In this document: positions 1-28,087 of the stretch, one piece after another | Numbering within the stretch: position 1 is the stretch's first letter | Layout: each line of letters opens with the position of its first letter | From: a virus | Reading direction: 5' to 3' (one strand) | Virus record (IMG/VR): IMGVR_UViG_3300020159_003101 | Coordinates: 1 to 30,626 of that record | DNA: 30,626 nt | Translations under genes and position numbers: made by a program | The notes under the pieces: generated by a model | Seen by the model: only the letters and a program-made list of their open reading frames with translations | What the model was told of the DNA's origin: nothing | Database searches by the model: none

Positions 1-111
1 GGTGTAGGTGTTGGTGTAGATGTACTAGTTGGTGTACTAGTTGGTATAGGTGTTGATGTACTAGTTGGTGTACTAGTTGGTATAGGTGTTGATGTACGTG
101 TAGGCGTTGCG
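1..111. repeat. 36-bp tandem repeat encoding Thr/Pro/Ser linker
   Basis: A 36-bp unit starts at 31 and again at 67; the first 30 bases of the two copies are identical. Bases 1-30 and 97-111 are degenerate copies. The period is a multiple of three, and on the minus strand it encodes a 12-residue Thr/Pro/Ser unit at the C-terminal end of the cut-off virion protein. The array probably continues beyond the left edge. Confidence 0.85.
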
Positions 112-1514
112 GTCGGCAAAGGTAACCCACTTAAATCATCAATACAATCAATACCACATATCTCAAAATCATAGTTGTTTAAAATATTTAAAAAATCATG
201 TCTAACATGAACAAAATCTAATGGTTCCTCATAATATTTTATTTTTTTCATTTTAAAACAACAAGCACCACTGTGGATATTGTTCATTAAACCAGTTCCA
301 GCTCCCCAAGATTGTATAAATGGTTGAGTTCCCCTCGTTGATGGAATAACCTCTTCCCAATTCTCTAACTTATATATAGGTCTTCCGTTTAGGTATATTT
401 TAAGTGTACCTAATCTTCTTTGTCTTTCTTCTGACCATTCTTCTCTCAATGATTCAGAAGCATTCCAAACCGTTAGTTGTGTTGATGTAACTGCGGTAAC
501 TACTGTGTTTTGATAGGGTGATGTTCTATAACCAATCATATCATTCCAACCACCATCGTTTTCAATATCACAAAAATCATAATGCTTGTACCTATCAAAT
601 GTTATTGTAATATTAAAATCTTTTATTGCGTTGGTTGTACATAACGTGGGTGTTTGTCCGCTAGATAGATAATATGACTCAGAATAAGCCCCATTAACAC
701 ACGCACCGGAATAACGATACGCGGACCATTTTATTCTTCCGTCAGAGGTAAATCCAAACGAAAGATTATTGTCTGCATAATCAGAAACAACATTACTACC
801 TCTAACACCCCAATAATAAAATATCCCACCAGAAGACCAACTTAAATTATTTCTATTAAAAATAAAATCTAATGTCCAACCCTTTTCGGTTCTTCTTGCT
901 AATGTTGGTGTACAATTGTCGGTTCCTTGACCTTGATTAAAATCATATGCCCACGGCTTAACAACTTGAATTGGAGCTAAAGGTGAGCACGCATTAGCGT
1001 TAATAATGTTTTTTCTTGATTTATATACATCTGTTGTAAATCCAGATATTAATTGGGGCTTAGTATATCCAGTTAAAGCATTAGAATCTGGAGTGGCTAA
1101 ATTATATGAATTTATTTTAAAATAATGTGTTCTACCACTAATTAATGTAAATTTATATCTATTTGAGTCTAATAATATGTTTTTATAGTTCGATCCAATA
1201 TAATTAGTGAAATCATCATAGTTAAGAGTCATTTGTAAACCAGAATAGGTATATCCATTAACCAAGTCTGAAATGTCGTCCTCAGATAGGTTAATCAATG
1301 ATTTTACACATTGTAAGTTTGTTAAACTTTGATTAATCTTTAAACTTTCATATACAATTGGTGTATATAAATCTAAAACGTCAGTATTATAGTCAGTATC
1401 GACTTTTGTGATTTCATAATCATAAAATTCTGACGAATCTAGTTTGGCATCCAATCTTGTACCATAAAACTTTAAAATATTCTGGCTATTCATATTTAGA
1501 TAAATATCTTTCAT
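1..1514 (-). CDS. Virion/tail adhesin-like protein with Thr-Pro repeat tail (partial)
   Basis: This reading frame is open from an ATG at 1514 to the left edge (504 codons, no stop), so the C-terminus is missing. I do not recognise a named family. Residues 1-460 look like beta-rich extracellular or virion protein, with many aromatic and Asn residues and about ten Cys. A segment around residues 375-425 contains GTLKIYLNGRPIY followed by a Gly/Trp-rich stretch, reminiscent of LamG/concanavalin-like sandwich domains. From about residue 466 it becomes a Thr/Pro/Ser tandem repeat, typical of extended linkers in virion fibres. It is divergent from the gene at 1545; the 30-bp gap holds an AT-rich promoter-like element. 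A tail fibre or decoration protein is the best guess, by inference only. Confidence 0.6.
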   Translation of the reverse strand, partial: MKDIYLNMNSQNILKFYGTRLDAKLDSSEFYDYEITKVDTDYNTDVLDLYTPIVYESLKINQSLTNLQCVKSLINLSEDDISDLVNGYTYSGLQMTLNYDDFTNYIGSNYKNILLDSNRYKFTLISGRTHYFKINSYNLATPDSNALTGYTKPQLISGFTTDVYKSRKNIINANACSPLAPIQVVKPWAYDFNQGQGTDNCTPTLARRTEKGWTLDFIFNRNNLSWSSGGIFYYWGVRGSNVVSDYADNNLSFGFTSDGRIKWSAYRYSGACVNGAYSESYYLSSGQTPTLCTTNAIKDFNITITFDRYKHYDFCDIENDGGWNDMIGYRTSPYQNTVVTAVTSTQLTVWNASESLREEWSEERQRRLGTLKIYLNGRPIYKLENWEEVIPSTRGTQPFIQSWGAGTGLMNNIHSGACCFKMKKIKYYEEPLDFVHVRHDFLNILNNYDFEICGIDCIDDLSGLPLPTATPTRTSTPIPTSTPTSTSTPIPTSTPTSTSTPTPT

Positions 1515-2790: not shown

Positions 2791-3444
2791 ATGGCAACAC
2801 AATTAGAAATCATTGCTGAAAAAGAAAGACAGGCACATTTAACAAGAAATTCATACATTGAAAAAAATGGCTATGGTGTAACACATGAAAATGCACTATC
2901 AAATGGTGATGAAAAAGGTAAAGGAGAAGCTGGTACAATTGGATCATCTGTAGATATTCAAGCCAGAGTTGAAAACCTTCTTAGAAATCCGTATTCATCA
3001 AATAATCAATATAATTCAAAAAATATTAACGCATTATCTGATGGTGATGAAAAAGGTAAAGGTGAAAATGGAACTATTGGTTCTTCTGTAGACATATTAA
3101 CAAGAAATGAGTTAATGTCTAAAAATACATATTTACAAAACAAAGCATATGGTGTAACTAGTCCTAATGCATTATCTGATGATGATGAAAAGGGAAAGGG
3201 TGAAAATAGTGGTAAAATTGGTTCATTAACAGATATCAAAGTTAGAACCGAAAGTTTATCTAGAAATTCATATAATAATCAAAACGCTTATAATTCTAAA
3301 AACCCTAACGCATTATCTGATGGTGATGAAAAGGGTAAGGGAGAAAACAACGGATCTGTTGGATCATTAACAGATGTTAATTCAAGAAAAGATAGTGTCG
3401 CTAGAAATAAATTTGGCGAAACAAAAAAATACCCAGATTTTTAA
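2791..3444 (+). CDS. Four-repeat NALS-GDEKGKGE protein
   Basis: This 217-residue, highly hydrophilic protein contains no Cys or Trp. It is built of four repeats of 46-47 residues starting at residues 34, 80, 126 and 173. Each repeat opens with NALS followed by D/N-G/D-DEKGKGE, then a Gly/Ser segment (GTIGSSVDI or GSLTDI), an Arg-containing helix, and an RN-x-Y...N-x-Y segment. I do not recognise the fold. The conserved acidic-Gly core could bind metal or form a repeated turn; this is inference. It is flanked 3 bases upstream and 1 base downstream by other unassigned genes, consistent with one transcript. Its products may be virion or head proteins, but nothing in the sequence proves this. Confidence 0.8.
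   Translation: MATQLEIIAEKERQAHLTRNSYIEKNGYGVTHENALSNGDEKGKGEAGTIGSSVDIQARVENLLRNPYSSNNQYNSKNINALSDGDEKGKGENGTIGSSVDILTRNELMSKNTYLQNKAYGVTSPNALSDDDEKGKGENSGKIGSLTDIKVRTESLSRNSYNNQNAYNSKNPNALSDGDEKGKGENNGSVGSLTDVNSRKDSVARNKFGETKKYPDF
2890..3420 (+). repeat. Four intragenic repeats of about 138-141 bp
   Basis: Coding repeats begin at about 2890, 3028, 3166 and 3307 and encode the NALS...GDEKGKGE modules. Third-position differences between copies show that the repetition is kept at protein level rather than being a recent DNA duplication. Confidence 0.75.
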
Positions 3445-10623: not shown

Positions 10624-11405
10624 AAAATATAACAATAATATTACCGGTACATAAATTAAACGATGATTATAATTTAATGTTACAAAAAGCTGTAGAATCT
10701 GCTAAAGAATTTTACAACGATGTTAAACTAATGATCGTTGCACCAGCAAGTTTAAAAACAAAATTAGACGCCGTTGATTTAGGTAAAAAATTAGAAATTG
10801 AATATAAACTTCACAATAATAATACTGACTTCTGCACACAAGTAAATGAAGGTATTAATAGTTGCGATACTGAGTGGTTCTCAATTTTAGAGATTGATGA
10901 TGAATATCAAAAAATCTGGTTAAAGTCGGTTAATCAATATGTTAACGAAAATCCGGATGTTGATGTTTTTTTACCAATCGTTAAGGATATTGACGAAGAA
11001 GGTAATTTTACAAACTTCACAAATGAATCTGTTTGGGCATATGGGTTTTCTGAAAAACAAGGATTTATTGATAATGAAGTTTTAATTGAATACCAAAGCT
11101 ATCAAATTAGTGGTGGGTTATACAAAACAAAGGTAGTTAAAGAAAATGGTGGCCTTAAAGAAAATATCAAATTAACCTTCGGTTATGAATTTTTATTAAG
11201 ACTTACACATAATGGTGCCAAGGTTATGGTTGTACCTAGAATAGGATATAGACACGTTAATTTAAGAGAAGACTCTTTGTTCTGGTCATATAAGAATGAT
11301 GAGAAAACTAAACTTGTAGAAAACGAAGCTAAATTTTGGGTAGAAACAGCTAAAAAAGAATTTTTCTTTACCAATAAACGAGAAGTCAATTATAATGCAA
11401 TTTAA
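10620..11405 (+). CDS. GT-A (family 2-like) glycosyltransferase
   Basis: This is a 261-residue protein with the GT2 layout. ITIILPVHKLND at the N-terminus is the first strand and loop of the nucleotide-sugar binding domain. EWFSILEIDDEY near residues 85-96 holds the DxD-like metal-binding pair (IDD). A later aromatic/charged segment contains SGGLYKTKVVKENGG, as in acceptor-binding regions. It lacks membrane helices, so it is cytoplasmic. The start overlaps the GT-B gene (ATGA) and its TAA overlaps the ATG of the sigma-factor gene (TAATG). This links glycosylation genes to the late-transcription factor in one transcript. Confidence 0.8.
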   Translation: MKNITIILPVHKLNDDYNLMLQKAVESAKEFYNDVKLMIVAPASLKTKLDAVDLGKKLEIEYKLHNNNTDFCTQVNEGINSCDTEWFSILEIDDEYQKIWLKSVNQYVNENPDVDVFLPIVKDIDEEGNFTNFTNESVWAYGFSEKQGFIDNEVLIEYQSYQISGGLYKTKVVKENGGLKENIKLTFGYEFLLRLTHNGAKVMVVPRIGYRHVNLREDSLFWSYKNDEKTKLVENEAKFWVETAKKEFFFTNKREVNYNAI

Positions 11406-12103
11406 TGCCAAGAAAAAGAACCCAAAAAGTTTATTTTGGGGAGGATCAAGAAAAGGCAGTAGTTAAATACTTAGAAAGTACTGACGATGCGGAAAGGAAT
11501 AAGATATTCAACGAATATTTACGTGAACCCCTAATTATAATGGTCGAATCAATTATTCGACGTTATAAACTATACAGAAAAGACATGGAATTTGAAGAGA
11601 TTCATACTGATACCATGTCTTTTTTAATAACTAAGATCAACAAGTTTGATCACACAAAAAACCACAAAGCCTATTCCTATTTTGGAACCATTTGTAAGAA
11701 CTACTTAATGGGTGCAATCCAAAAAGATACTAAGGAGCAAAATAGGAGTATTTCATATGAGGACATATCTGAAGACATTGAAAGCAGAGTTGAGTTTTCA
11801 TATACAATTGATGAGTATCATATAGATTATACCAATGTTATAATCAATCTAACCAACAAATTGGAAGACTTTATTGAAAAAGAAGATCTAACGGATAATG
11901 AGAAAAAACTAGGCTATGCCCTCTTAGAAATATTTAGCAATTTTGACCAAATATTTCAAATAGGTGATGGTAATAAGTTCAATAAGAATTTAATCCTCCT
12001 GTCTCTAAGAGAGATGACATCATTATCAACAAAAGAAATTAGAATATCCCTTAAAAGATATAAACTTTTATATGACGGTGTTTTAGGTGGATTTTTAGAA
12101 TAA
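11405..12103 (+). CDS. gp55: gp55-like late sigma factor
   Basis: This 232-residue protein is related to T4 gp55, which directs host RNA polymerase to late promoters. Residues 15-60 contain a YLESTDDAERN...LREPLIIMVESIIRRYKLYRK segment typical of phage gp55 relatives. It is followed by INKFDHTKNHKAYSYFGTIC at 73-92 and NYLMGAIQKDTKEQNR (94-109), which matches sigma region 2 (T4: FDETKYKNPHAYITQ...). An acidic segment follows and then a helical C-terminal half. The last residues GVLGGFLE could be a sliding-clamp-binding tail, as in T4 gp55/gp33, but this is speculative. It would recognise the late promoters of the head and tail genes here. TAATG overlap with the glycosyltransferase upstream. 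Confidence 0.8.
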   Translation: MPRKRTQKVYFGEDQEKAVVKYLESTDDAERNKIFNEYLREPLIIMVESIIRRYKLYRKDMEFEEIHTDTMSFLITKINKFDHTKNHKAYSYFGTICKNYLMGAIQKDTKEQNRSISYEDISEDIESRVEFSYTIDEYHIDYTNVIINLTNKLEDFIEKEDLTDNEKKLGYALLEIFSNFDQIFQIGDGNKFNKNLILLSLREMTSLSTKEIRISLKRYKLLYDGVLGGFLE

Positions 12104-19164: not shown

Positions 19165-20898
19165 CTATCTTAAAGTATTCATATCGAACGTTTGTAAACC
19201 ACTTACGTTGATTACACCGAAGTAACGGTTGTTCACCATTTTCTTTGCGTAACGTGTCATGATACCTTTAATCGGAGTCATGTTAAATGGATTGTACATT
19301 GTTGGAGTTAACTGTAACGGCACATATGGAGCGTAGATATAACCTGCGTCTAATAGTGACTTACCTTTGTGACCTACAAGGATCTTACCTGCTGGTAAGT
19401 ATGGATCACGGTATACTTGATAACGTCCAGCAAGTGTACCAACTTTCTCGATACCCATGTTGTACTGATCTTGCTCTGGACCTGCATTAGATACGTGGAA
19501 ATACTCTAAATCATCGAATACTGCAGAAACTTCTGAAGAAACAACGATCCAGTTTGCACCACCTCTTAATGTAGTCTTATGGATTTGAGCTGATAATTGG
19601 TTAATTTTAGTAACCAACGTTTGGTTCCAATCTTTTTGAGTGTAACCCATGAATGGAGTGTTTCCAGTTGCACCATATTTCCACTCGTTATAATCCCACT
19701 TAGCAGTCCAAGCAGCACCTTTTCTAAGGTCACGTAAAATTTCACGGTCAACCTCAGCAGCGATTTGCTCAGATAATAAAGCTGTTAATTCAGCTTCAGC
19801 ATCGATGTTATGAAACGCAGAAACGTCTTGTGCTAATTCTGGAGACCAGCTAGCTCTTAATTTTCTTTCAGTTACAGAAACTGTTACAGAAGCTAAATCA
19901 AAAGATACTTCACCAATTTGATCTTCAAATTCTAATGAATCGTAAACTCTGAAAACTAATGTTACACCAGCTGAAGTGAAACCTGAAGGAACAGTAAGGT
20001 TAGAGAAACCTGAAGTTGCGCTGTAAGATTGTAAATCTACTTTTATGTAAATTGTACCTTCTTCATCACAAATATCTTGGTATCTTCCTGAAGGATATGA
20101 TGCTGAAGTTGATTTTTGACCATATTCAACAATACCTTTACCATACTTTTGTGTAACAATGTTGAAGTTTCTTGCTGCACCTGCGTAGTTAACTACAGCA
20201 GAAGCTAAGAAATCTTCAGTATCCATTACAGAACCATTTGGCCCGATTAATTTACCTTGACCATCTTTTGCAAATCCTGTGAATTTAATGATTAAGTCAG
20301 AAACTGAAGTTCCTGTTACAGCAGAGTTAGCCACATCTGTAGTTGCTCCGTTAGAGAAAGTTACAACTGTAGCACCTGTTAAAGTTACTGCAGAGTAAGC
20401 TCCTTTAGAGTAATCATAGATACCAGTATCAGCTGCATCATTTGCTTCGTAGAAACGATCGTAAAGACTTCTTGGGTCATTTGTACCTGAAGTATAACCT
20501 AAGGTAGATGCGTCAGAATTACCTGGCATACCATAAGGTGAAGTGTGTGCTCCTGATTGTCTTTCTTGAATTTTAGGTACGAAGTAGAACAATTTACCAA
20601 TTGGTAAGTTCATTGCTTGTACAGAAACGATATCGTTTGCTAATAATTTAGAGAATACACGGCGGATAATTGGGAATACCACTGTCTCGAAAGAACCACT
20701 AGCATCAGAAACTGCTGCTTCGTTGATTAAATAAGACGCTTGGTTTTCATACAATTGCGCGATGTTATCTTTTTGATGACCGTCTAGGCCTTCTAGGAAT
20801 CCTAAGTCATCCCATTTTTTGATGGTATCTTCTTTGATAACTCTAAGGTGTTTTAAACCGATGTTACCTACCATACCTGATTCTAATAATGCTCCCAT
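19165..20898 (-). CDS. gp23: Major capsid protein gp23
   Basis: This 577-residue protein is homologous to T4 gp23 (521 residues). The HK97-fold core begins after a delta domain that is cleaved in T4 at LTE|A (residue 65). Here the equivalent site is LINE|AAV after residue 60, fitting the [L/I]xE rule of gp21. The following block PIIRRVFSKLLANDIVSVQ and AMNLPIGKLFYFVPK matches gp23 (VRRAIPNLIAFDICGVQPMNSPTG). Near the C-terminus, AGRYQVYRDPYLPAGKILVGHKG and DAGYIYAPYVPLQL correspond to T4 GGKYRVYIDQYAK...DAGIYYAPYVAL. Codons such as CGT, TAC, TTC and AAC are more common here than elsewhere, typical of high expression. Terminator 21 bases downstream. Confidence 0.95.
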   Translation of the reverse strand: MGALLESGMVGNIGLKHLRVIKEDTIKKWDDLGFLEGLDGHQKDNIAQLYENQASYLINEAAVSDASGSFETVVFPIIRRVFSKLLANDIVSVQAMNLPIGKLFYFVPKIQERQSGAHTSPYGMPGNSDASTLGYTSGTNDPRSLYDRFYEANDAADTGIYDYSKGAYSAVTLTGATVVTFSNGATTDVANSAVTGTSVSDLIIKFTGFAKDGQGKLIGPNGSVMDTEDFLASAVVNYAGAARNFNIVTQKYGKGIVEYGQKSTSASYPSGRYQDICDEEGTIYIKVDLQSYSATSGFSNLTVPSGFTSAGVTLVFRVYDSLEFEDQIGEVSFDLASVTVSVTERKLRASWSPELAQDVSAFHNIDAEAELTALLSEQIAAEVDREILRDLRKGAAWTAKWDYNEWKYGATGNTPFMGYTQKDWNQTLVTKINQLSAQIHKTTLRGGANWIVVSSEVSAVFDDLEYFHVSNAGPEQDQYNMGIEKVGTLAGRYQVYRDPYLPAGKILVGHKGKSLLDAGYIYAPYVPLQLTPTMYNPFNMTPIKGIMTRYAKKMVNNRYFGVINVSGLQTFDMNTLR

Positions 20899-20923: not shown

Positions 20924-22126
20924 TTATTTATTTAATTTACTCATCAAATCTCTCATTCTCTTAAACTGAGGGGCTTCGTAAGCTTTTGACTCAGATAAAA
21001 CTTCTTGAGAAGAAGATGTTGATGCTGTATTAGCAATTTTACCTGCTACAGTCTCAGTCACTGGTTTTTTAGTGTCTAATTCTGCTTTGATAGAATTGTA
21101 AAGATTTTTAGATTCGTTTATAGTAGAGATTGAATCAAATTTCTTCAAAATATTCAATTTCTCCTGTTTTGTTGTTGAATGTTCAGTAAATAGTCTAGTT
21201 GCATAAGCAAGGTTAGCGTTGAATACAGCAACTTCGTTTAATTTATCTTTAAACAGAATTAACGCTTTTTTATATTCGCCATTTTGTTTTCTAAGATTTT
21301 CAACTTCTTCGTTAATTGCTTTTGATGCTTTTTTTGTTTCATTTTTAGCACCGGCCGCAAAAACTTTTTTGCTTGTTAATCCAGCTCTTTTACCACCATG
21401 TACGTTCCACTTAGTACGAGCAGCTTCGCCAACTTCTTCTTCAGGTGCCATATCTTCTTCAGACATTTCATCTTCCGCTTCGTCGTCTAACTCAATCTCA
21501 TAGATAGTTTCTTCGTCTGCAACATCAATGTTAGTTTCTCCTTCAGTCCAGTCTTCAGACATTTCGTCTTCTTCCTCTTCTTCTGATTCGGCTAACTTAA
21601 TAATGTACTCATCATCAGCATCTGTAAGTTCAATGTTGTTACCATCTTTTTTAACAATAATACCATCTTCATCTGACATTGCTTTAAACACCTTTAGAAC
21701 CTCATCATCTGCGGCTCCTGTCATGTCTAATGTATCGTCATCATCTGATGCCATATCATCCATAGATGGAAACTCATCGTCTTCCATTTCAGGTGATTCA
21801 TCGTCAGTAGAAAACTCATCATCTTCTTCTTCTTCGTCTTCACCATCGATATCTTTTGATGGTTCATCATTTATTGAGGGGATTTCATCTTCATCATCAG
21901 CTGCATCTTCATCATCTGCTGGCTGCTCTGACATGTCGTTTTCCTCTTCTTCAGGACCTAAGTAAGCTTCAGCTGCCATAGTATCCTCTTCTTCTGATTC
22001 TTTAAGCAATTCGTTTAGTTCTTGCTTCATTACTGAAGAAAGTATACCTTTTGCATTTTGCTTTACTGCTTCTTCAAGTGTATTAACTTGAAGTAGTGCT
22101 TGTTCTAAAATCGATTTTTCGCTCAT
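20924..22126 (-). CDS. gp22: Prohead core scaffold (gp22-like)
   Basis: This is a 400-residue acidic protein at the gp22 position between protease and capsid genes. The N-terminal 45 residues are helical. Residues 45-240 are extremely rich in Asp and Glu with Ser and Met (blocks of ADDEDEIPS and EEEEDEMSE). Residues 240-400 are a Lys/Leu helical region with FKDKLNEVAVFNANLAYATRLF. T4 gp22 is shorter (269 residues), acidic and alpha-helical, and is degraded by gp21 during maturation. The acidic core fills the prohead. Identity rests on composition and gene order more than on sequence. A TATTTATA element lies 20 bases before the ATG. Confidence 0.8.
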   Translation of the reverse strand: MSEKSILEQALLQVNTLEEAVKQNAKGILSSVMKQELNELLKESEEEDTMAAEAYLGPEEEENDMSEQPADDEDAADDEDEIPSINDEPSKDIDGEDEEEEDDEFSTDDESPEMEDDEFPSMDDMASDDDDTLDMTGAADDEVLKVFKAMSDEDGIIVKKDGNNIELTDADDEYIIKLAESEEEEEDEMSEDWTEGETNIDVADEETIYEIELDDEAEDEMSEEDMAPEEEVGEAARTKWNVHGGKRAGLTSKKVFAAGAKNETKKASKAINEEVENLRKQNGEYKKALILFKDKLNEVAVFNANLAYATRLFTEHSTTKQEKLNILKKFDSISTINESKNLYNSIKAELDTKKPVTETVAGKIANTASTSSSQEVLSESKAYEAPQFKRMRDLMSKLNK

Positions 22127-22218: not shown

Positions 22219-22908
22219 TTATCTCTTAAGAAAAGTGTCTAGGTTACCCATTAATTTTTTTAATCTGTTATCCATTGTTGGCTTTTCTTCAATTGTTTCG
22301 TTGAATTTATCTTTATCAGCCATGTCTTGAAATACGTAAGCTCCTGGTGTTGATGGCGATGATACCAAATCAAAACAAACTAATTCAAAATCATCTTGTA
22401 CAATGTTCTGTCCTTTTATTTGCTTTAACGAACCAACGCCTCTTGAAGAAATACCTAATGTAACGCCATTTAGAAGTAGCATGGCTGCTTGATCACCCTT
22501 ACAACTAACAATCCCCATTTTTTTCCAACCTGGAGATGTTAATATTTTAATTTTACCCATTAGGGTTCTACCATCCCACCACGTTTCTGTAATTGTGTGG
22601 GAAACCCTATCTAAATCAATAAGTGATGATGATGGATGATTAAGTTCGTTAAGTGCCGAACCTTTACTGATTATTTGTTGATACTTGTCATTTTCCCTTT
22701 TAAGTAACGATTCAGGATAAATCCTTCCGTTCTTATTTGGGGTATCGTATTTTTGTAGAACAGCATACAGAATAAGATCCTGATCGGTATCCTTATTCTG
22801 TATCTCTGTTATTATGTTTTTGTTTTTTAACTCTTCTGGAGATATGTGACCTGCGTCATACTCAATCAATAGTCCTCTTCCAGATTCATTAGGCCCTAAT
22901 ACTTTCAT
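22219..22908 (-). CDS. gp21: Prohead protease gp21
   Basis: This 229-residue serine protease of the T4 gp21 / herpesvirus assemblin-like fold cleaves head proteins at [L/I]xE during maturation. Visible motifs: NGRIYPESLL, ELNHP with the catalytic His at residue 91, DLDRVSHTITETWWDG, and LGISSRGVGSL with the active Ser at 154 or 155. The N-terminus (VLGPNESGRGLLIEYDAG) and C-terminus (MDNRLKKLMGNLDTFLKR) are short. It sits between the core proteins and gp22, the same place as in T4. A TATTTATA element lies 20 bases upstream of the ATG. Confidence 0.93.
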   Translation of the reverse strand: MKVLGPNESGRGLLIEYDAGHISPEELKNKNIITEIQNKDTDQDLILYAVLQKYDTPNKNGRIYPESLLKRENDKYQQIISKGSALNELNHPSSSLIDLDRVSHTITETWWDGRTLMGKIKILTSPGWKKMGIVSCKGDQAAMLLLNGVTLGISSRGVGSLKQIKGQNIVQDDFELVCFDLVSSPSTPGAYVFQDMADKDKFNETIEEKPTMDNRLKKLMGNLDTFLKR

Positions 22909-22950: not shown

Positions 22951-23379
22951 TCAAATCTTAGTTTTATTAAAATTGAATAATGTTTTATCCCCTAAACACA
23001 GATCTATTGACTCGCTAGTGAATTTTTTTAGTAAATTTTTAATTAAACCACTCTTAACATCAAAAAATTTATCAACAAATAAAGTGATCTCTAGATTCAT
23101 AAACGACCTTTTATTCAATTTAATTCCCTTTGTTCTAATGTCTAAATCTACAATACTTTCTTTTTTAAAGTTTTCGCCCAAATTATAGTCTCGAATGAAG
23201 TCTTTTATCTTCTTTCTTGCTTTAGATATTGTTTTATCAAAATCTTCGTTTTCATTATCTGGTTCTACCCAGGCATTCATTTTTACATAAATGGTCTTTA
23301 GATTTTTAAAATCTACTGTTCCATAACCAACTTTTACATCCTTGTGGTCTTCTAATGGAATAAATTTTCCAATTTTCAT
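22951..23379 (-). CDS. Hypothetical protein between core and protease genes
   Basis: This is a 142-residue basic protein of unknown function. It opens with a strand segment (MKIGKFIPLEDHKDVKVGYG), has an IYVKMNAWVEPDN strand and a Lys-rich helix (KARKKIKDFIRDY), and ends in helices (GLIKNLLKKF). The mixed strand-helix alternation suggests a small alpha/beta fold rather than a core coiled coil. In T4 the genes between 20 and 21 are 67 and 68, both prohead core proteins; this and the gene at 23667 occupy that position. No sequence similarity to either is apparent, so the role is positional inference only. Confidence 0.6.
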   Translation of the reverse strand: MKIGKFIPLEDHKDVKVGYGTVDFKNLKTIYVKMNAWVEPDNENEDFDKTISKARKKIKDFIRDYNLGENFKKESIVDLDIRTKGIKLNKRSFMNLEITLFVDKFFDVKSGLIKNLLKKFTSESIDLCLGDKTLFNFNKTKI

Positions 23380-23466: not shown

Positions 23467-23474
23467 TATTTATA
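23467..23474 (+). promoter_or_regulatory. TATTTATA element before the bS21 gene
   Basis: Exact element on the plus strand, 4 bases before the ATG at 23479. The bS21 gene thus carries the same element as capsid genes, though on the opposite strand from them. Confidence 0.5.
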
Positions 23475-23478
23475 AATT

Positions 23479-23670
23479 ATGATTATAATTGACATGAAAA
23501 AAGAAAAGAGCATTGAATCTGCTCTTAAAAGTTACAAAAGTAAAGTGCAAAAAACTAAACAAATCCAAAAACTAAGGGAAAGGGAAAAGTTTGTTAAACC
23601 TTCGGTTAAAAGAAGAGTTGAAGTATTAAAAGCCGTTTATGTAGAAAAATTAAAAAATGGTCTGAATTAA
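23479..23670 (+). CDS. rpsU: Ribosomal protein bS21 (phage-encoded)
   Basis: This 63-residue protein matches bacterial bS21 throughout: MIIIDMKKEKSIESALKSYK aligns with the usual opening (M-I-v-x(7)-sid.ALkryK). KTKQIQKLREREKFVKPS and VKRR follow the conserved helix and KPS-RR motif, and KAVY (51-54) matches the C-terminal helix. Its length, 63 residues, is that of the short Bacteroidota form rather than the 71-residue E. coli form. bS21 binds the small subunit near the 16S 3' end. In Bacteroidota it helps bury the anti-Shine-Dalgarno sequence, and the phage copy could replace the host protein. It is the only plus-strand gene in the minus-strand head cassette and shares a terminator with the gene at 23667-24407. 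Confidence 0.92.
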   Translation: MIIIDMKKEKSIESALKSYKSKVQKTKQIQKLREREKFVKPSVKRRVEVLKAVYVEKLKNGLN

Positions 23671-23689
23671 TCAAGACCATTTTTTAATT
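23648..23689. terminator. Bidirectional terminator overlapping two gene ends
   Basis: A perfect 16-bp inverted repeat, 23648-23663 with 23674-23689, around a 10-base loop. Each arm has a GGTCT core and ends in an A-run or T-run, so it can act as a rho-independent terminator in both directions. The two stop codons lie in the loop, and the arms encode the last residues of both convergent genes. Confidence 0.88.
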
Positions 23690-24407
23690 GTGTTAATCTG
23701 TAGTAATTATATTTTGATGGTTCCATTGTGGTAACCTCAGTTCTAACCGATTCAAGTTTTACACCTAAATCAGTATCCTTAGATTCTGATAATATATTTT
23801 GGACCTTAGTAAGGATAGCTTCTTTTAGTTCAGATGTTTTTGTTACCAACTCCTCGCCATTTAATACTAATATGTTTTTAAGTGCTTCTTTATCTTCTTT
23901 AGATAATGTATTCTCATATAATGTATTGAAATTGTTTACTAATACCGCATGTAACAAATTTTCATTTGCTGTGTATGTGCTACCCTCAACAATGTTTTGT
24001 ACTAACTTTTTTGTTGTTAAATGTTCAACTAATTTCTTCTTCGCTTTTACTTTCTTTTCAATATTTGATAAACTATCATTTTCAGCTAAAATGTCTAATG
24101 AGTTATAAATTTCGTTTTCGTTAAATAATTCCACGTTAATCATTTTGTTTAATGATGTGCAGAAGGTACTCAAATCAGTCGTTTCTTGTTTTAAGATGTT
24201 AATAATCCCTTCTACAAACAACTGTGCGGTTTCTTTATCGTCAATATATTTGTTTTCAATTTCTTCATAAAAAAGATACATTTCCTTAAATTCTTTATTT
24301 TCAACAACAGACTTTAAAATGTTTTTCATTTCAGACTTATTGTTAGAACCGTATGATTCTGTTAACTTTTTTAAAAGCTTGCTTTTTATAATCCCTATTT
24401 TATTCAT
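23667..24407 (-). CDS. Candidate prohead core protein
   Basis: This is a 246-residue helical, Lys/Glu/Leu-rich protein. The N-terminus IIKSKLLKKLTESYGS is an amphipathic helix ending in LTE, a gp21-type cleavage site. There are further [L/I]xE tripeptides, such as ILSE. The body is a run of helices (MKNILKSVVENKEFKEMYLF, KKLVEHLTTKKLVQNIVEG) resembling internal core proteins. It lies 2 bases downstream of gp20, in the position of T4 genes 67/68, so a prohead core role is likely but inferred. The 3' end overlaps the bidirectional terminator shared with bS21, and both proteins end in LKNGL. Confidence 0.65.
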   Translation of the reverse strand: MNKIGIIKSKLLKKLTESYGSNNKSEMKNILKSVVENKEFKEMYLFYEEIENKYIDDKETAQLFVEGIINILKQETTDLSTFCTSLNKMINVELFNENEIYNSLDILAENDSLSNIEKKVKAKKKLVEHLTTKKLVQNIVEGSTYTANENLLHAVLVNNFNTLYENTLSKEDKEALKNILVLNGEELVTKTSELKEAILTKVQNILSESKDTDLGVKLESVRTEVTTMEPSKYNYYRLTQLKNGLD

Positions 24408-24409
24408 TT

Positions 24410-26212
24410 TTAATCGTTTAAAATGTCGTTCAATTTATTCTCTATTTCATAAATATTCTTCTGTGCCTTTTCAAGATTAAACAAATCATCATTTTCTTGA
24501 GATTCTCCTAAAACACTTCTAATCTTACTAAATTTCTTTCTTTCACTTAATGGTTCTGATGCTTCTCCAGATGGAGGTGCCGCTGGAGTAGGTGATGACA
24601 TACCACCTAATGCGCCCTCTTCACCACCTTCTGGTGCTTGTGCCTCTATCTTAGCTCTTTCCTCTTCAGGTATACCATATTTATTATCCACTTCGTCAAA
24701 CACACCAGATCTTCTGATAATTTGTGCTGTGTTTTGTAATTCGGTACCCATAGCTCTTTCAAGACGTTGTTGTTGTAAATCTAACAATACTTCATTATCA
24801 CTCATACCAAGAATATTTTTCTTAGCCCACGTATGTGATACTGGTAATATACCAATTTGAGATTGATCTGAAGTAGCGTCTTTGTATAAAGTAACTTTTT
24901 CTTTCCATTGCTCGATCTTTAATAAATCTGCTTGTGAAGATGGGTTTGTTAAACCTAATGTGAAATTCTCTAATTCATCTTCTAATCCTAAAAGATATAA
25001 ATGAATTAATGCTATCTTATTTAACTCTTGTATTAAAGACTTTTGTATTCTATTAATAGTTCTTGCAAAACGAATATCCATTAATGCAAGATTCTTACCA
25101 TCACCAACAACTTCTTCAAAACCTAAGAATGCCTTAGGAATACGAAGCGCTGCCAATAGTTTCTTTTGAATATATTCAATATCCGCAATCTCACCTAAGT
25201 TTTGTGCGCCAGCTAATGTCTCAATTGGACTAGGAGCTGCAGGATCACGAACAGGAATAAAATAATCCTGATCAACAGCCATTTGGTTATATCTCATATC
25301 CACCTGACCGTTTCTGCTGTCTACTACTTGATCTCTTTTAAATTTATTTGCAACACGTTGTACATATGGTTCAATATCTTTATCATCCATGTTACCAACA
25401 AAAATTTTAAATACACGTCTTTCTGGTGCTCTTGATGTTCTATAAATTAACATAGCATCTTCTGCAAGTAAAAGTTGTTTCCAAATTCTTCTAATCTTAT
25501 CTAACATAGATGTACCATATGGTAACTTTCTATCATCACCTAATAATCTAAAGTGAGCAAGTTCCCAAGATTGAAACTCCATATCTTTGTTTTTCCACTG
25601 AAATCGCAATTCGCGAATTGGAGATTTTATATCACCAGCAGTTGGATTTTTTGATTGTGCACCCTCAATTCTTTCAATTTCGATGTTTGGTAATTGTTGA
25701 CAACCAACAATACCCCTTTCTGGATCACTCTTTAGATAAACAAAGTTGTCACCATACTTACATACGTTTCTAGCCCACATTTGTAGGTTAGTATTTATAT
25801 CTAATCTATTTTCAAATAAATCTATTAAAACATTTTTTACTCTTTTTGATTCGGAGTATACATTTAAAATATATCCCTTTTCTGAAACTGTTGTTGATTC
25901 TTCTGCGTAAATGTCTAACGCGGCAGATACCTCTGGAGTAAACTCCATAGACTCATAATCATAATAAGCCGCTAATCTGTTTGGTTCATAATATACCGAT
26001 TGGTTATATAATGAATTATCCAATTTAGCCCACTTATCAAAAAGATACTGGGATTGCTGTGCTTGTAATCTTGCTTTTTCAAATTCAACTGGATCATCGG
26101 TCTTAAGTAACTCCTCTCTCGAAAAGTTAAAAGATGGACTCTGCTCTCCTTTATTCTGAAAGCCGAATATTTTAGTTAATTTCTGAAAAACTGTCAAATC
26201 TTGATTCGCCAT
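24410..26212 (-). CDS. gp20: Portal protein gp20
   Basis: This 600-residue protein is homologous to the T4 portal (524 residues), the dodecameric ring at one vertex through which DNA is packaged and to which the neck attaches. The N-terminal part contains EYDYESMEFTPEVSAALDIY-like residues (AYYDYESMEFTPEVSAAL), the GDNFVYLKSDPERG strand, the ELAHFRLLGDDRKLPYGTS segment and RRIWKQLLLAEDAMLIYRTS, all typical of the gp20 family. KIFVGNMDDKDIEPYVQR and LRIPKAFLGFEE follow. The C-terminus is a Pro/Gly/Ala-rich linker (residues 535-560) and a helical tail. A TATTTATA element lies 4 bases before the ATG. Confidence 0.92.
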   Translation of the reverse strand: MANQDLTVFQKLTKIFGFQNKGEQSPSFNFSREELLKTDDPVEFEKARLQAQQSQYLFDKWAKLDNSLYNQSVYYEPNRLAAYYDYESMEFTPEVSAALDIYAEESTTVSEKGYILNVYSESKRVKNVLIDLFENRLDINTNLQMWARNVCKYGDNFVYLKSDPERGIVGCQQLPNIEIERIEGAQSKNPTAGDIKSPIRELRFQWKNKDMEFQSWELAHFRLLGDDRKLPYGTSMLDKIRRIWKQLLLAEDAMLIYRTSRAPERRVFKIFVGNMDDKDIEPYVQRVANKFKRDQVVDSRNGQVDMRYNQMAVDQDYFIPVRDPAAPSPIETLAGAQNLGEIADIEYIQKKLLAALRIPKAFLGFEEVVGDGKNLALMDIRFARTINRIQKSLIQELNKIALIHLYLLGLEDELENFTLGLTNPSSQADLLKIEQWKEKVTLYKDATSDQSQIGILPVSHTWAKKNILGMSDNEVLLDLQQQRLERAMGTELQNTAQIIRRSGVFDEVDNKYGIPEEERAKIEAQAPEGGEEGALGGMSSPTPAAPPSGEASEPLSERKKFSKIRSVLGESQENDDLFNLEKAQKNIYEIENKLNDILND

Positions 26213-26257: not shown

Positions 26258-28045
26258 TTATAAAGCCTTTTTATTTGTTCCAAACAACCAAGAATATTGA
26301 TTGTACTGTTCTTTTGCTGGCGTTCCGTTATTATTGCTCTTAGCATATGGTGAACTATCGATCTGCATCATACCAACCTGATCAAAGCTGGTACCATATG
26401 AGTATGCTTCTGTTTGTGGTGATTGGTACGTTCTTTCAGACATAACCCAAGAGTCCAACATTGCTTTGTTTTGCTGTTCGTTTCTAACTAATTGTGTAAA
26501 AGATATATCACCAGCATATAATGCAATTGCCAAACTCATAATAGAATCGTCATGCTGACCTTTCATGTGATCCGGTCTACCGTTTATATAAACAAAGGTA
26601 TTAAGTTCATTTAAAAGTCTATTTGATCTAACAATAAAATCATGTCTCAATTGCTCTTCAAATGCGGAAATAATCTGCGTTCTTTTATTGTTGAAATTAA
26701 TTCCAGGTATTTTTTCCATTGCTTTTGCATTATATTCCCAAACATTCTTGGTATTAATACCGTCAATGAATAAGTTTTTATAATTCATTTCTTGCAATTT
26801 TCTTGATGTTGCAACACCCATACCACCCGTGATATCAATTACAATAAACGCATCATACAATACACCCCATTTATAAGCAACAGCTGCTAAATCATCTGGT
26901 GGCATTTTACCAACATATTCAACAACTTGTTCCCTTTCATCAAAATCAATAATATTGATTGATGAAAAATCCTCACTATCACCTCTACTAACATCAACTC
27001 CCATAATATACCTATGTCCCTGAACTGGTTCATTCCATTGCCAAAGCAAACCTTGTATATATTTTTCTTTTGGTTGTTTAATCATGTTTTTGGCAATCTT
27101 TTCCATTATATCATTTGGTATAACGCTATCACCGGAACCCAAGAAATCACATTCAAGTTCTTGCGCAATTTTTCTTTTGTCATATTTGAATTTTTTGGAC
27201 ATGGACTCAAACCATGTTGAATATGGTTGATAACCATTATCCATTAATTCTTGATACTTTGTTAAATCAAATTCCTTTAAAATAATCTCATCATCATTAT
27301 ATTGTTCTCTATTCAACATATAATGCACAATATCAGGAACTTTAATCCAAACTAAATCTTTAGTATATCTAGGATCTTTAAACCATCTTAAATCGGTTAT
27401 GTGAAAATCATTAATACCTCTTATTGCTTGCTCATAAACACCATAATAAATTGGATCATAACCATTTGGCGTTGATATTAATATAATCTTACCACCGGTT
27501 GATAACGAGGCCATAGAAGCCGCCCAGAAGTCATCTCCAGCTTCAATATACGCAGCCTCGTCAAATACTAATATTGTTGGTGTAAAACCACGAAGAGCAT
27601 CAGCAGATGTAGCCACAGCTTTTACCTCTGATCCGTTATTTAATCTAAATCTACTTTCTGAATTTTTATCTGGTGAAAACCCAACATTAATCCATTCTGG
27701 CCATTGATCTAAAAAGTGACGAACTTTATTCGCCATCTCAATTGCTGTATCACGTTTGTTTGCGATAATCAAAACCCTTTCTGGATTTTCTGGTTTTGCT
27801 AATTGTAATTTTTTTGATAACCATGCGGCCGTTACTGTTGTAACACCAGCTTGACGATATTTTCTTGTGATGTTTTCATTATATGTTTCGTAATCTTTTA
27901 ATAATTGTACTTGATCCGGAAACAACTCCAATGGTACAAACTTTCTTTGTGTGTTATCGAAGGTTTGAAGATATGTTCTAAGTGCGTATGGAGTATCTTT
28001 TATTATACGAGCATACTCTTTTAATTGTTCTATTTTTTGACTCAT
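26258..28045 (-). CDS. gp17: Terminase large subunit gp17
   Basis: The ATG at 28045 gives 595 residues. The longer frame to 28081 is rejected because it runs into the upstream terminator. The packaging ATPase domain has a Gln motif (FPDQVQLL), Walker A RQAGVTT (64-70, without the usual Lys before Thr), Walker B ILVFDEA (D162, E163) and motif III ISTPNG (190-195). The RNase H-fold nuclease domain has GVDVSRGD (D351), VIDITGG (D404) and DDSIMS (D499/D500), the expected acidic triad. It pumps and cuts the concatemeric genome at the portal. Upstream lies a terminator and the TATTTATA element; the next gene downstream is gp20. Confidence 0.95.
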   Translation of the reverse strand: MSQKIEQLKEYARIIKDTPYALRTYLQTFDNTQRKFVPLELFPDQVQLLKDYETYNENITRKYRQAGVTTVTAAWLSKKLQLAKPENPERVLIIANKRDTAIEMANKVRHFLDQWPEWINVGFSPDKNSESRFRLNNGSEVKAVATSADALRGFTPTILVFDEAAYIEAGDDFWAASMASLSTGGKIILISTPNGYDPIYYGVYEQAIRGINDFHITDLRWFKDPRYTKDLVWIKVPDIVHYMLNREQYNDDEIILKEFDLTKYQELMDNGYQPYSTWFESMSKKFKYDKRKIAQELECDFLGSGDSVIPNDIMEKIAKNMIKQPKEKYIQGLLWQWNEPVQGHRYIMGVDVSRGDSEDFSSINIIDFDEREQVVEYVGKMPPDDLAAVAYKWGVLYDAFIVIDITGGMGVATSRKLQEMNYKNLFIDGINTKNVWEYNAKAMEKIPGINFNNKRTQIISAFEEQLRHDFIVRSNRLLNELNTFVYINGRPDHMKGQHDDSIMSLAIALYAGDISFTQLVRNEQQNKAMLDSWVMSERTYQSPQTEAYSYGTSFDQVGMMQIDSSPYAKSNNNGTPAKEQYNQYSWLFGTNKKAL

Positions 28046-28048
28046 ATA

Positions 28049-28056
28049 TATAAATA
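28049..28056 (-). promoter_or_regulatory. TATTTATA element before gp17
   Basis: Minus strand, 3 bases before the ATG at 28045 and directly after the terminator of the previous gene, so gp17 needs a start signal here. If it is a -10 element the mRNA would be leaderless. Confidence 0.5.
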
Positions 28057-28058
28057 TG

Positions 28059-28084
28059 AAAAAAGTGGTCAAATTGACCACTTT
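28059..28084 (-). terminator. Rho-independent terminator before gp17
   Basis: AAAGTGGTC (28062-28070) pairs perfectly with GACCACTTT (28076-28084) around a 5-base loop. On the minus strand it is followed by six T. It ends the transcript of the 432-residue gene and separates it from gp17, whose ATG is only 13 bases further on. Confidence 0.85.
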
Positions 28085-28087
28085 AAG

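Follow-up and report, generated by a model that had tools for sequence, protein, structure and literature searches.

Among ribosomal proteins, bS21 is the one most often carried by phages. The Bacteroidota offer a clean case for asking why, since their bS21 both hides the anti-Shine-Dalgarno (anti-SD) sequence and controls its own gene. The closest described systems are those of Chen et al. 2022 (PMC9723584), who report 47 phage genomes from Bacteroidetes hosts with bS21 encoded on the opposite strand within the region of the large terminase (TerL), portal, protease and major capsid protein (MCP) genes, Tyr54 in 54 of 61 sequences with an aromatic residue in the rest, RNA evidence that bS21 is expressed late with structural genes, and sequence divergence located in the N-terminal helix, close to where the mRNA passes. 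On the host side, McNutt et al. 2023 (PMC9976891) describe autoregulation of Flavobacterium johnsoniae bS21 through an extended SD, an increase of rpsU'-gfp with Y54A, and the speculation that autoregulation could counter phages carrying bS21. A more distant case is pelagiphage HTVC008M, whose bS21, according to Mizuno et al. 2019 (PMC6375957), enters E. coli ribosomes and leaves GFP synthesis/activity at ~5% of wild type.

The window analyzed here (30,626 bases, from IMG/VR) is a virus record and carries such a gene at 23479-23670 on the plus strand (63 aa, ATG start). A sequence-only reading had called the product a full-length bS21 in the 63-residue Bacteroidota form with Tyr at position 54, and had suggested a profile search as a check. 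That search matched Pfam PF01165 at 42.4 bits (cut-off 27, E=5.6e-11, residues 4-54), and the other parts of the assignment held as well: F. johnsoniae bS21 (7jil chain z) matches the viral protein without gaps over residues 1-62 in phmmer (E=1.9e-12; ~45% identity across the 62 alignable residues), and Tyr54 aligns on Tyr54 of 7jil_z, which indicates that the A1534-stacking residue of Bacteroidota-type bS21 is present. The same residue occurs in 79/79 viral rows of 63 aa (drawn from the window sequence and the 80 most similar of its 143 relatives) and in 80/80 cellular rows (the best 80 of 577, passing one peptide pattern). In total, 143 IMG/VR stretches encode relatives of the viral protein, which together with the conserved phage flanks rules out a chance ORF or bacterial contamination; the relatives and a median dN/dS of 0.124 in core codons (471 pairs), indicating purifying selection, both speak against chance. 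Viral bS21 is, judged from these comparisons, a real gene under selection.

Because Chen et al. 2022 describe the same arrangement, the window bS21 can be regarded as one more example from a group already described. As in those phages, it lies between two hypothetical genes on the opposite strand within the TerL/portal/protease/MCP region, and its product is Bacteroidota-like with Tyr54; unlike them, namely myoviruses of ~293-331 kb with late bS21 transcription, the window is a 30.6-kb fragment. The late-gene placement that had first been thought notable is thus not new, being the very subject of that paper (PMC9723584). The bS21 of HTVC008M is likewise phage-borne, but it is set apart by its description as of alphaproteobacterial type and host. 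With cellular Bacteroidota bS21 (F. johnsoniae, 7jil) the window protein shares fold family, length and Tyr54, whereas the viral gene differs in having no extended SD, a late-type upstream element and a terminator-shaped C-terminus.

The surrounding head module is of T4 type and lies on the minus strand. It comprises the major capsid protein Gp23 (19165-20898; Pfam 248.4 bits), an acidic 400-aa protein that is scaffold-like by position only (20924-22126; no PHROG match), a prohead protease of the Peptidase_S77 family (22219-22908; 83.3 bits), the portal protein Gp20 (24410-26212; 255.6 bits) and TerL (26258-28045; Terminase_6N, 43.5 bits). The sole plus-strand gene inside it is bS21, in agreement with the earlier description of a bS21 gene among head genes on the opposite strand. 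Its immediate neighbors, also on the minus strand, are a divergent gene of 142 aa (22951-23379) and a convergent gene of 246 aa (23667-24407). Both flanking genes were seen in 62 of 80 portal-selected loci, and bS21 was present in 60 of these 62, opposite to the portal strand in every case; in the other two (L201 and L267) only 103-109 nt separate the flanking genes, where the median is 294 nt. Since these two phages belong to the same group and have both flanking genes without bS21, the gene is, on this sampling, usual in the group yet dispensable, and the bS21-less sister phages may serve as natural controls. Dependence of the 142-aa or the 246-aa neighbor on bS21 is ruled out, as L201 and L267 have both genes.

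Comparison of 40 viral with 61 cellular distinct proteins showed no common residue at positions 8, 9, 10, 14, 18, 21, 23, 24, 28 and 30 and almost none at positions 27 and 50, with Tyr54 constant. These differences in the N-terminal half agree with the divergence described by Chen et al. and leave room for an altered choice of mRNA. In a tree of 42 distinct viral, 63 cellular and 2 other sequences (64 columns, with a long-branch warning and unsettled bootstrap), the viral rows form one clade (96/91); its branch of 0.93 lies beside Bacteroidota rows and inside no single family, a position that 64 columns and long branches make suggestive only. A tblastn search of named phage records with bS21 gave four matches, all in uncultured huge phages and all below 60% identity.

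The clearest departure from the host gene lies upstream of the start codon. SD pairing was computed for the 24 nt upstream against the 16S tail, with thresholds of -7 and -13 kcal/mol; each viral start was placed at the ATG that aligns with residue 1, which shifted it in 18 loci, and another in-frame ATG lies farther upstream in 9 loci. For cellular Bacteroidota rpsU the median was -18.8 kcal/mol, with 76/80 rows at -7 or lower (the exceptions being L098, L133, L150 and L152) and 71/80 at -13 or lower. For viral rpsU the median was -0.6 kcal/mol and none of the 81 rows (39 distinct upstreams) reached -7, nor did any of 50 distinct portal-selected viral bS21 genes; the window gene itself, at +1.6 kcal/mol, does not have the extended SD of rpsU autoregulation. 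Viral rpsU thus lacks the extended SD that Bacteroidota use to autoregulate bS21. Other window genes are also SD-poor, with an SD at 1 of 34. In the sister phage G001, whose genes were taken from a simple ORF caller (ATG, at least 60 aa) run stretch by stretch, SDs precede 12/255 genes, compared with 33/255 in a mock window 40-64 nt upstream whose base make-up may differ. An SD-driven preference for phage mRNA was ruled out on this comparison, SDs being rarer before G001 genes than in the mock window.

In place of an SD, the window bS21 has a copy of TATTTATA (23467-23474, plus strand) that ends 4 nt before its ATG. The distance from this element to the start is also 4 nt for the portal gene, 3 nt for TerL (element at 28049-28056, start at 28045), and 20 nt for both the protease and the 20924-22126 gene. 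The claim that bS21 has the same upstream element as the capsid genes therefore stands for most head genes and fails for the major capsid gene, which has no copy within its 70 nt upstream. Of the nine TATTTATA sites in the window, eight are followed after 3-31 nt by a gene in the same orientation, a count that rests on moving the TerL start from GTG 28081 to ATG 28045; 200 dinucleotide shuffles gave a mean of 0.26 and a maximum of 3 such placements. The ATG at 28045 is likely the true start, judged by sequence; TerL of G001 has the same start, taken from an ATG-only caller. In the same region (28043-28086), a hairpin with a T run directly precedes the TerL copy.

The element is not confined to the window. 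As an oriented 8-mer, TATTTATA is the top enriched upstream 8-mer in G001, occurring within 45 nt of 36/255 genes against 1.58 expected; within 60 nt it occurs at 38 genes and its reverse complement at 8. Thirteen of these 38 genes have a PHROG match, the best match being to head, connector or tail families in 6 and a lower-ranked one in 2 more; the others are one bS21, one CopG repressor and three unknown or mixed, and none of the 13 is a replication or nucleotide gene. Among control genes without TATTTATA (20 of 30 sampled G001 genes), virion families accounted for 2/20 and replication, nucleotide or metabolic families for 5/20. In distinct relatives the element lies upstream of the portal gene in 56/60, of TerL in 40/46 and of the protease in 35/44. 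We suggest that TATTTATA marks virion genes and is a putative phage late promoter element. Consistent with this reading, the protein encoded at 11405-12103 (plus strand; phrog_234, E=0.0027; Sigma70_r2, E=0.0012, under the Pfam cut-off) is a possible, weakly matched late sigma factor of the gp55 type. The late motif of T4 is TATAAATA; taken in that orientation as the element, it was rejected, as 8 G001 genes have it in the 60 nt before them, compared with 38 that have TATTTATA there.

Before bS21 itself, most relatives have a degenerate TACTTATA instead of the exact element, which lies within 40 nt of bS21 in 9/46 distinct portal-selected and 8/39 bS21-selected loci. At the ATG-proximal place in the bS21-selected upstreams, TATTTATA is exact in 8/39 and within one mismatch in 27/39, compared with 4.6 in shuffles, 0/79 in cellular rpsU and 8/39 at a place 20 nt further up; the signal is weaker in the portal-selected loci (exact in 7/46, within one mismatch in 23/46). 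Exact sites end 3-6 nt before the ATG in 49/56 portal and 40/40 TerL relatives and in 15 of the 38 G001 genes (last 60 nt), whereas protease-type late genes have a longer spacing. Transcription usually begins at a set distance downstream of a -10 element. If the same spacing applies to TATTTATA, sites ending 3-4 nt before the ATG hint at near-leaderless late mRNAs.

The other end of the gene is shaped by a bidirectional terminator-like hairpin (23648-23689), which covers the final codons and stop of both bS21 and the convergent 246-aa gene and folds at -17.8 and -18.2 kcal/mol on the two strands. Among bS21-selected relatives, an exact stem of 9-14 bp was found at 39/39 distinct sites, leaving aside sites with fewer than 36 nt downstream. 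The two proteins end alike (LKNGL and similar; LKNGLD in the 246-aa protein) because each reads one arm of the hairpin. Among 50 distinct portal-selected sites, 33 have both a GL end on bS21 and a stem of at least 8 bp, and 17 have neither; within the 33, synonymous changes are mirrored between the two genes (AAC in both at 6 sites, GGA in both at 1), with unmirrored cases of AAC versus AAT at 1 and GGC versus GGT at 1. The terminal Leu of viral bS21 is CTN in 39/39, while TTA and TTG account for 71% of the Leu codons of G001 and for 104/145 of those elsewhere in viral bS21, and cellular Flavobacterium-type genes use TTA at the terminal Leu in 12/14. Synonymous difference is 0.23 at codons 59-62 against 0.48 in the core. 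The codon and mirrored-change evidence therefore suggests that the bS21 tail is held at the DNA or RNA level, and the KNGL tail is, as far as sequence can tell, one arm of a bidirectional terminator common with the convergent gene. Conservation of KNGL thus need not reflect ribosome binding. Chen et al. (PMC9723584) saw C-terminal conservation as a sign of ribosome adaptation; the terminator would account for it more simply, a warning against reading a conserved viral C-terminus in that way. However, DGLES is a frequent ending of Flavobacterium bS21, and the viral C-terminal peptide may therefore be partly inherited, which counts against a terminator-only reading.

A search of the open-licence PMC literature by title and abstract start found no report of SD loss in viral rpsU or of TATTTATA as a phage promoter, and the main text of Chen et al. 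2022 (PMC9723584) contains none of the words terminator, hairpin, palindrom-, autoregul-, leaderless or promoter. The SD loss, the TATTTATA element and the terminator-shaped tail are apparently new within the literature examined. The novelty thus concerns the wiring of the gene; the gene itself is of a known kind. A phage moron is a gene that brings a promoter and a terminator of its own and is inserted between two genes which are adjacent in related phages. The features of bS21 here correspond to this, with the element at 23467-23474, the hairpin at 23648-23689 and flanks that adjoin in the two bS21-less relatives, whether bS21 was lost there or never present.

We speculate, giving the idea about an even chance, that viral bS21 forms a self-contained late cassette and that its product replaces the host protein beyond the reach of the host feedback. 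The cassette would combine the viral bS21 gene with a promoter-like element and a bidirectional terminator of its own, and it lies between two head genes in a Bacteroidota phage of T4 type. Late in infection, the phage transcription machinery would read TATTTATA, so that bS21 would be made together with TerL, portal and protease; for this phage we infer such timing by analogy with the RNA evidence from its relatives in Chen et al. Since Tyr54 is kept, viral bS21 would be expected to replace host bS21 at the 30S platform and, like it, to sequester the anti-SD tail. As its mRNA has no SD, viral bS21 could be translated without bS21-free ribosomes, while host rpsU mRNA, which needs such ribosomes, would stay off as long as ribosomes remain bS21-replete. 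Hiding the anti-SD and requiring none exposed, the viral gene would therefore escape the host loop and its product would replace the host copy. With the control signal shed and the hiding residue kept, the proposal makes a specific prediction, that host rpsU stays off, which is testable with existing F. johnsoniae reporters. Remodeling or takeover of host ribosomes late in infection, as the sequence-only reading supposed, is plausible, and the wiring suggests a testable route to it. Several points weigh against the cassette: L201 and L267 do without bS21, the element before bS21 is mostly the degenerate TACTTATA, and the mock SD window may differ in base make-up. Moreover, full equivalence of the viral and host proteins is not given, because 10 positions in the N-terminal half differ from every compared cellular sequence.

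Those same positions, together with the near exclusivity at 27 and 50, would speak for a rival reading in which viral bS21 alters initiation in favor of late phage mRNAs, a good number of which would be near-leaderless, over those of the host. Selective ribosomes were proposed by Chen et al., leaderlessness being our addition. The short spacing of TATTTATA in portal, TerL and G001 genes points the same way, as do E. coli 61S ribosomes without bS1, uS2 and bS21, which selectively translate leaderless mRNA (PMC4929434). However, that case concerns loss of bS21 rather than a variant, the start positions are predicted from spacing, protease-type late genes retain longer spacing, and most mRNAs of F. 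johnsoniae have leaders (>10 nt in 87%; PMC6847099); we consider this reading unlikely. A stronger version, in which viral bS21 turns host autoregulation against the host, SD-less synthesis and a hidden anti-SD blocking rpsU replenishment while the altered N-terminal half tunes ribosomes to near-leaderless late mRNAs, seems to us a long shot.

The ~5% activity obtained with pelagiphage bS21 (PMC6375957) speaks for poisoning no less than for replacement, although the host in that test was a foreign one. Viral bS21 might accordingly cripple initiation as a whole, which would free resources or block stress responses, but it is made alongside capsid genes that need translation too, and Tyr54 and the C-terminal helix are kept; host shut-off of this kind strikes us as quite improbable. 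Retention of Tyr54 and purifying selection would equally suit a phage that merely tops up host bS21, limiting or lost in infection, with specificity unchanged, and the 22 tRNA genes of G001 would fit a general supply strategy. The sharp fixed differences from cellular sequences run against such a role, to which we give little credence. Finally, the position among head genes could suggest a packaged protein or an RNA-binding head protein, and Chen et al. raised packaging as a possibility (PMC9723584); given the conserved ribosome-contact residues and the family-wide identity, an extraribosomal or virion role is highly improbable. Replacement outside the host feedback is thus the reading that we prefer.

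Some further observations concern the genes around bS21 and the rest of the window. The 142-aa neighbor has no Pfam match above the cut-off, a DUF3194 match falling below it. Its AlphaFold2 model (pLDDT 89.8 with 59 sequences; a poor 59.5 from the single sequence) gave nothing at E<=0.001 in Foldseek against the PDB, a top VIA-align Z of 7.3, in the range flagged as common, and one viral structural match (TM ~0.79) whose function is unannotated. Among 57 distinct upstreams of this gene, ACCATAA occurs in 52 and ACCATTAA in 3 more, below a TTTTGG-like box. For this gene, which is divergent from bS21, the element thus appears to be conserved, different and host-like, either a promoter or a leader element. 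In G001 (L272, L282; 251 kb), 21 of the tRNA genes form one cluster; none was found in the window. Elsewhere in the window, 2791-3444 (plus strand) encodes a protein of about four repeats around ALSDGDEKGKGE, and the ORF at 3-1514 (minus strand), which runs past the contig end, has a tail of Thr/Pro/Ser repeats.
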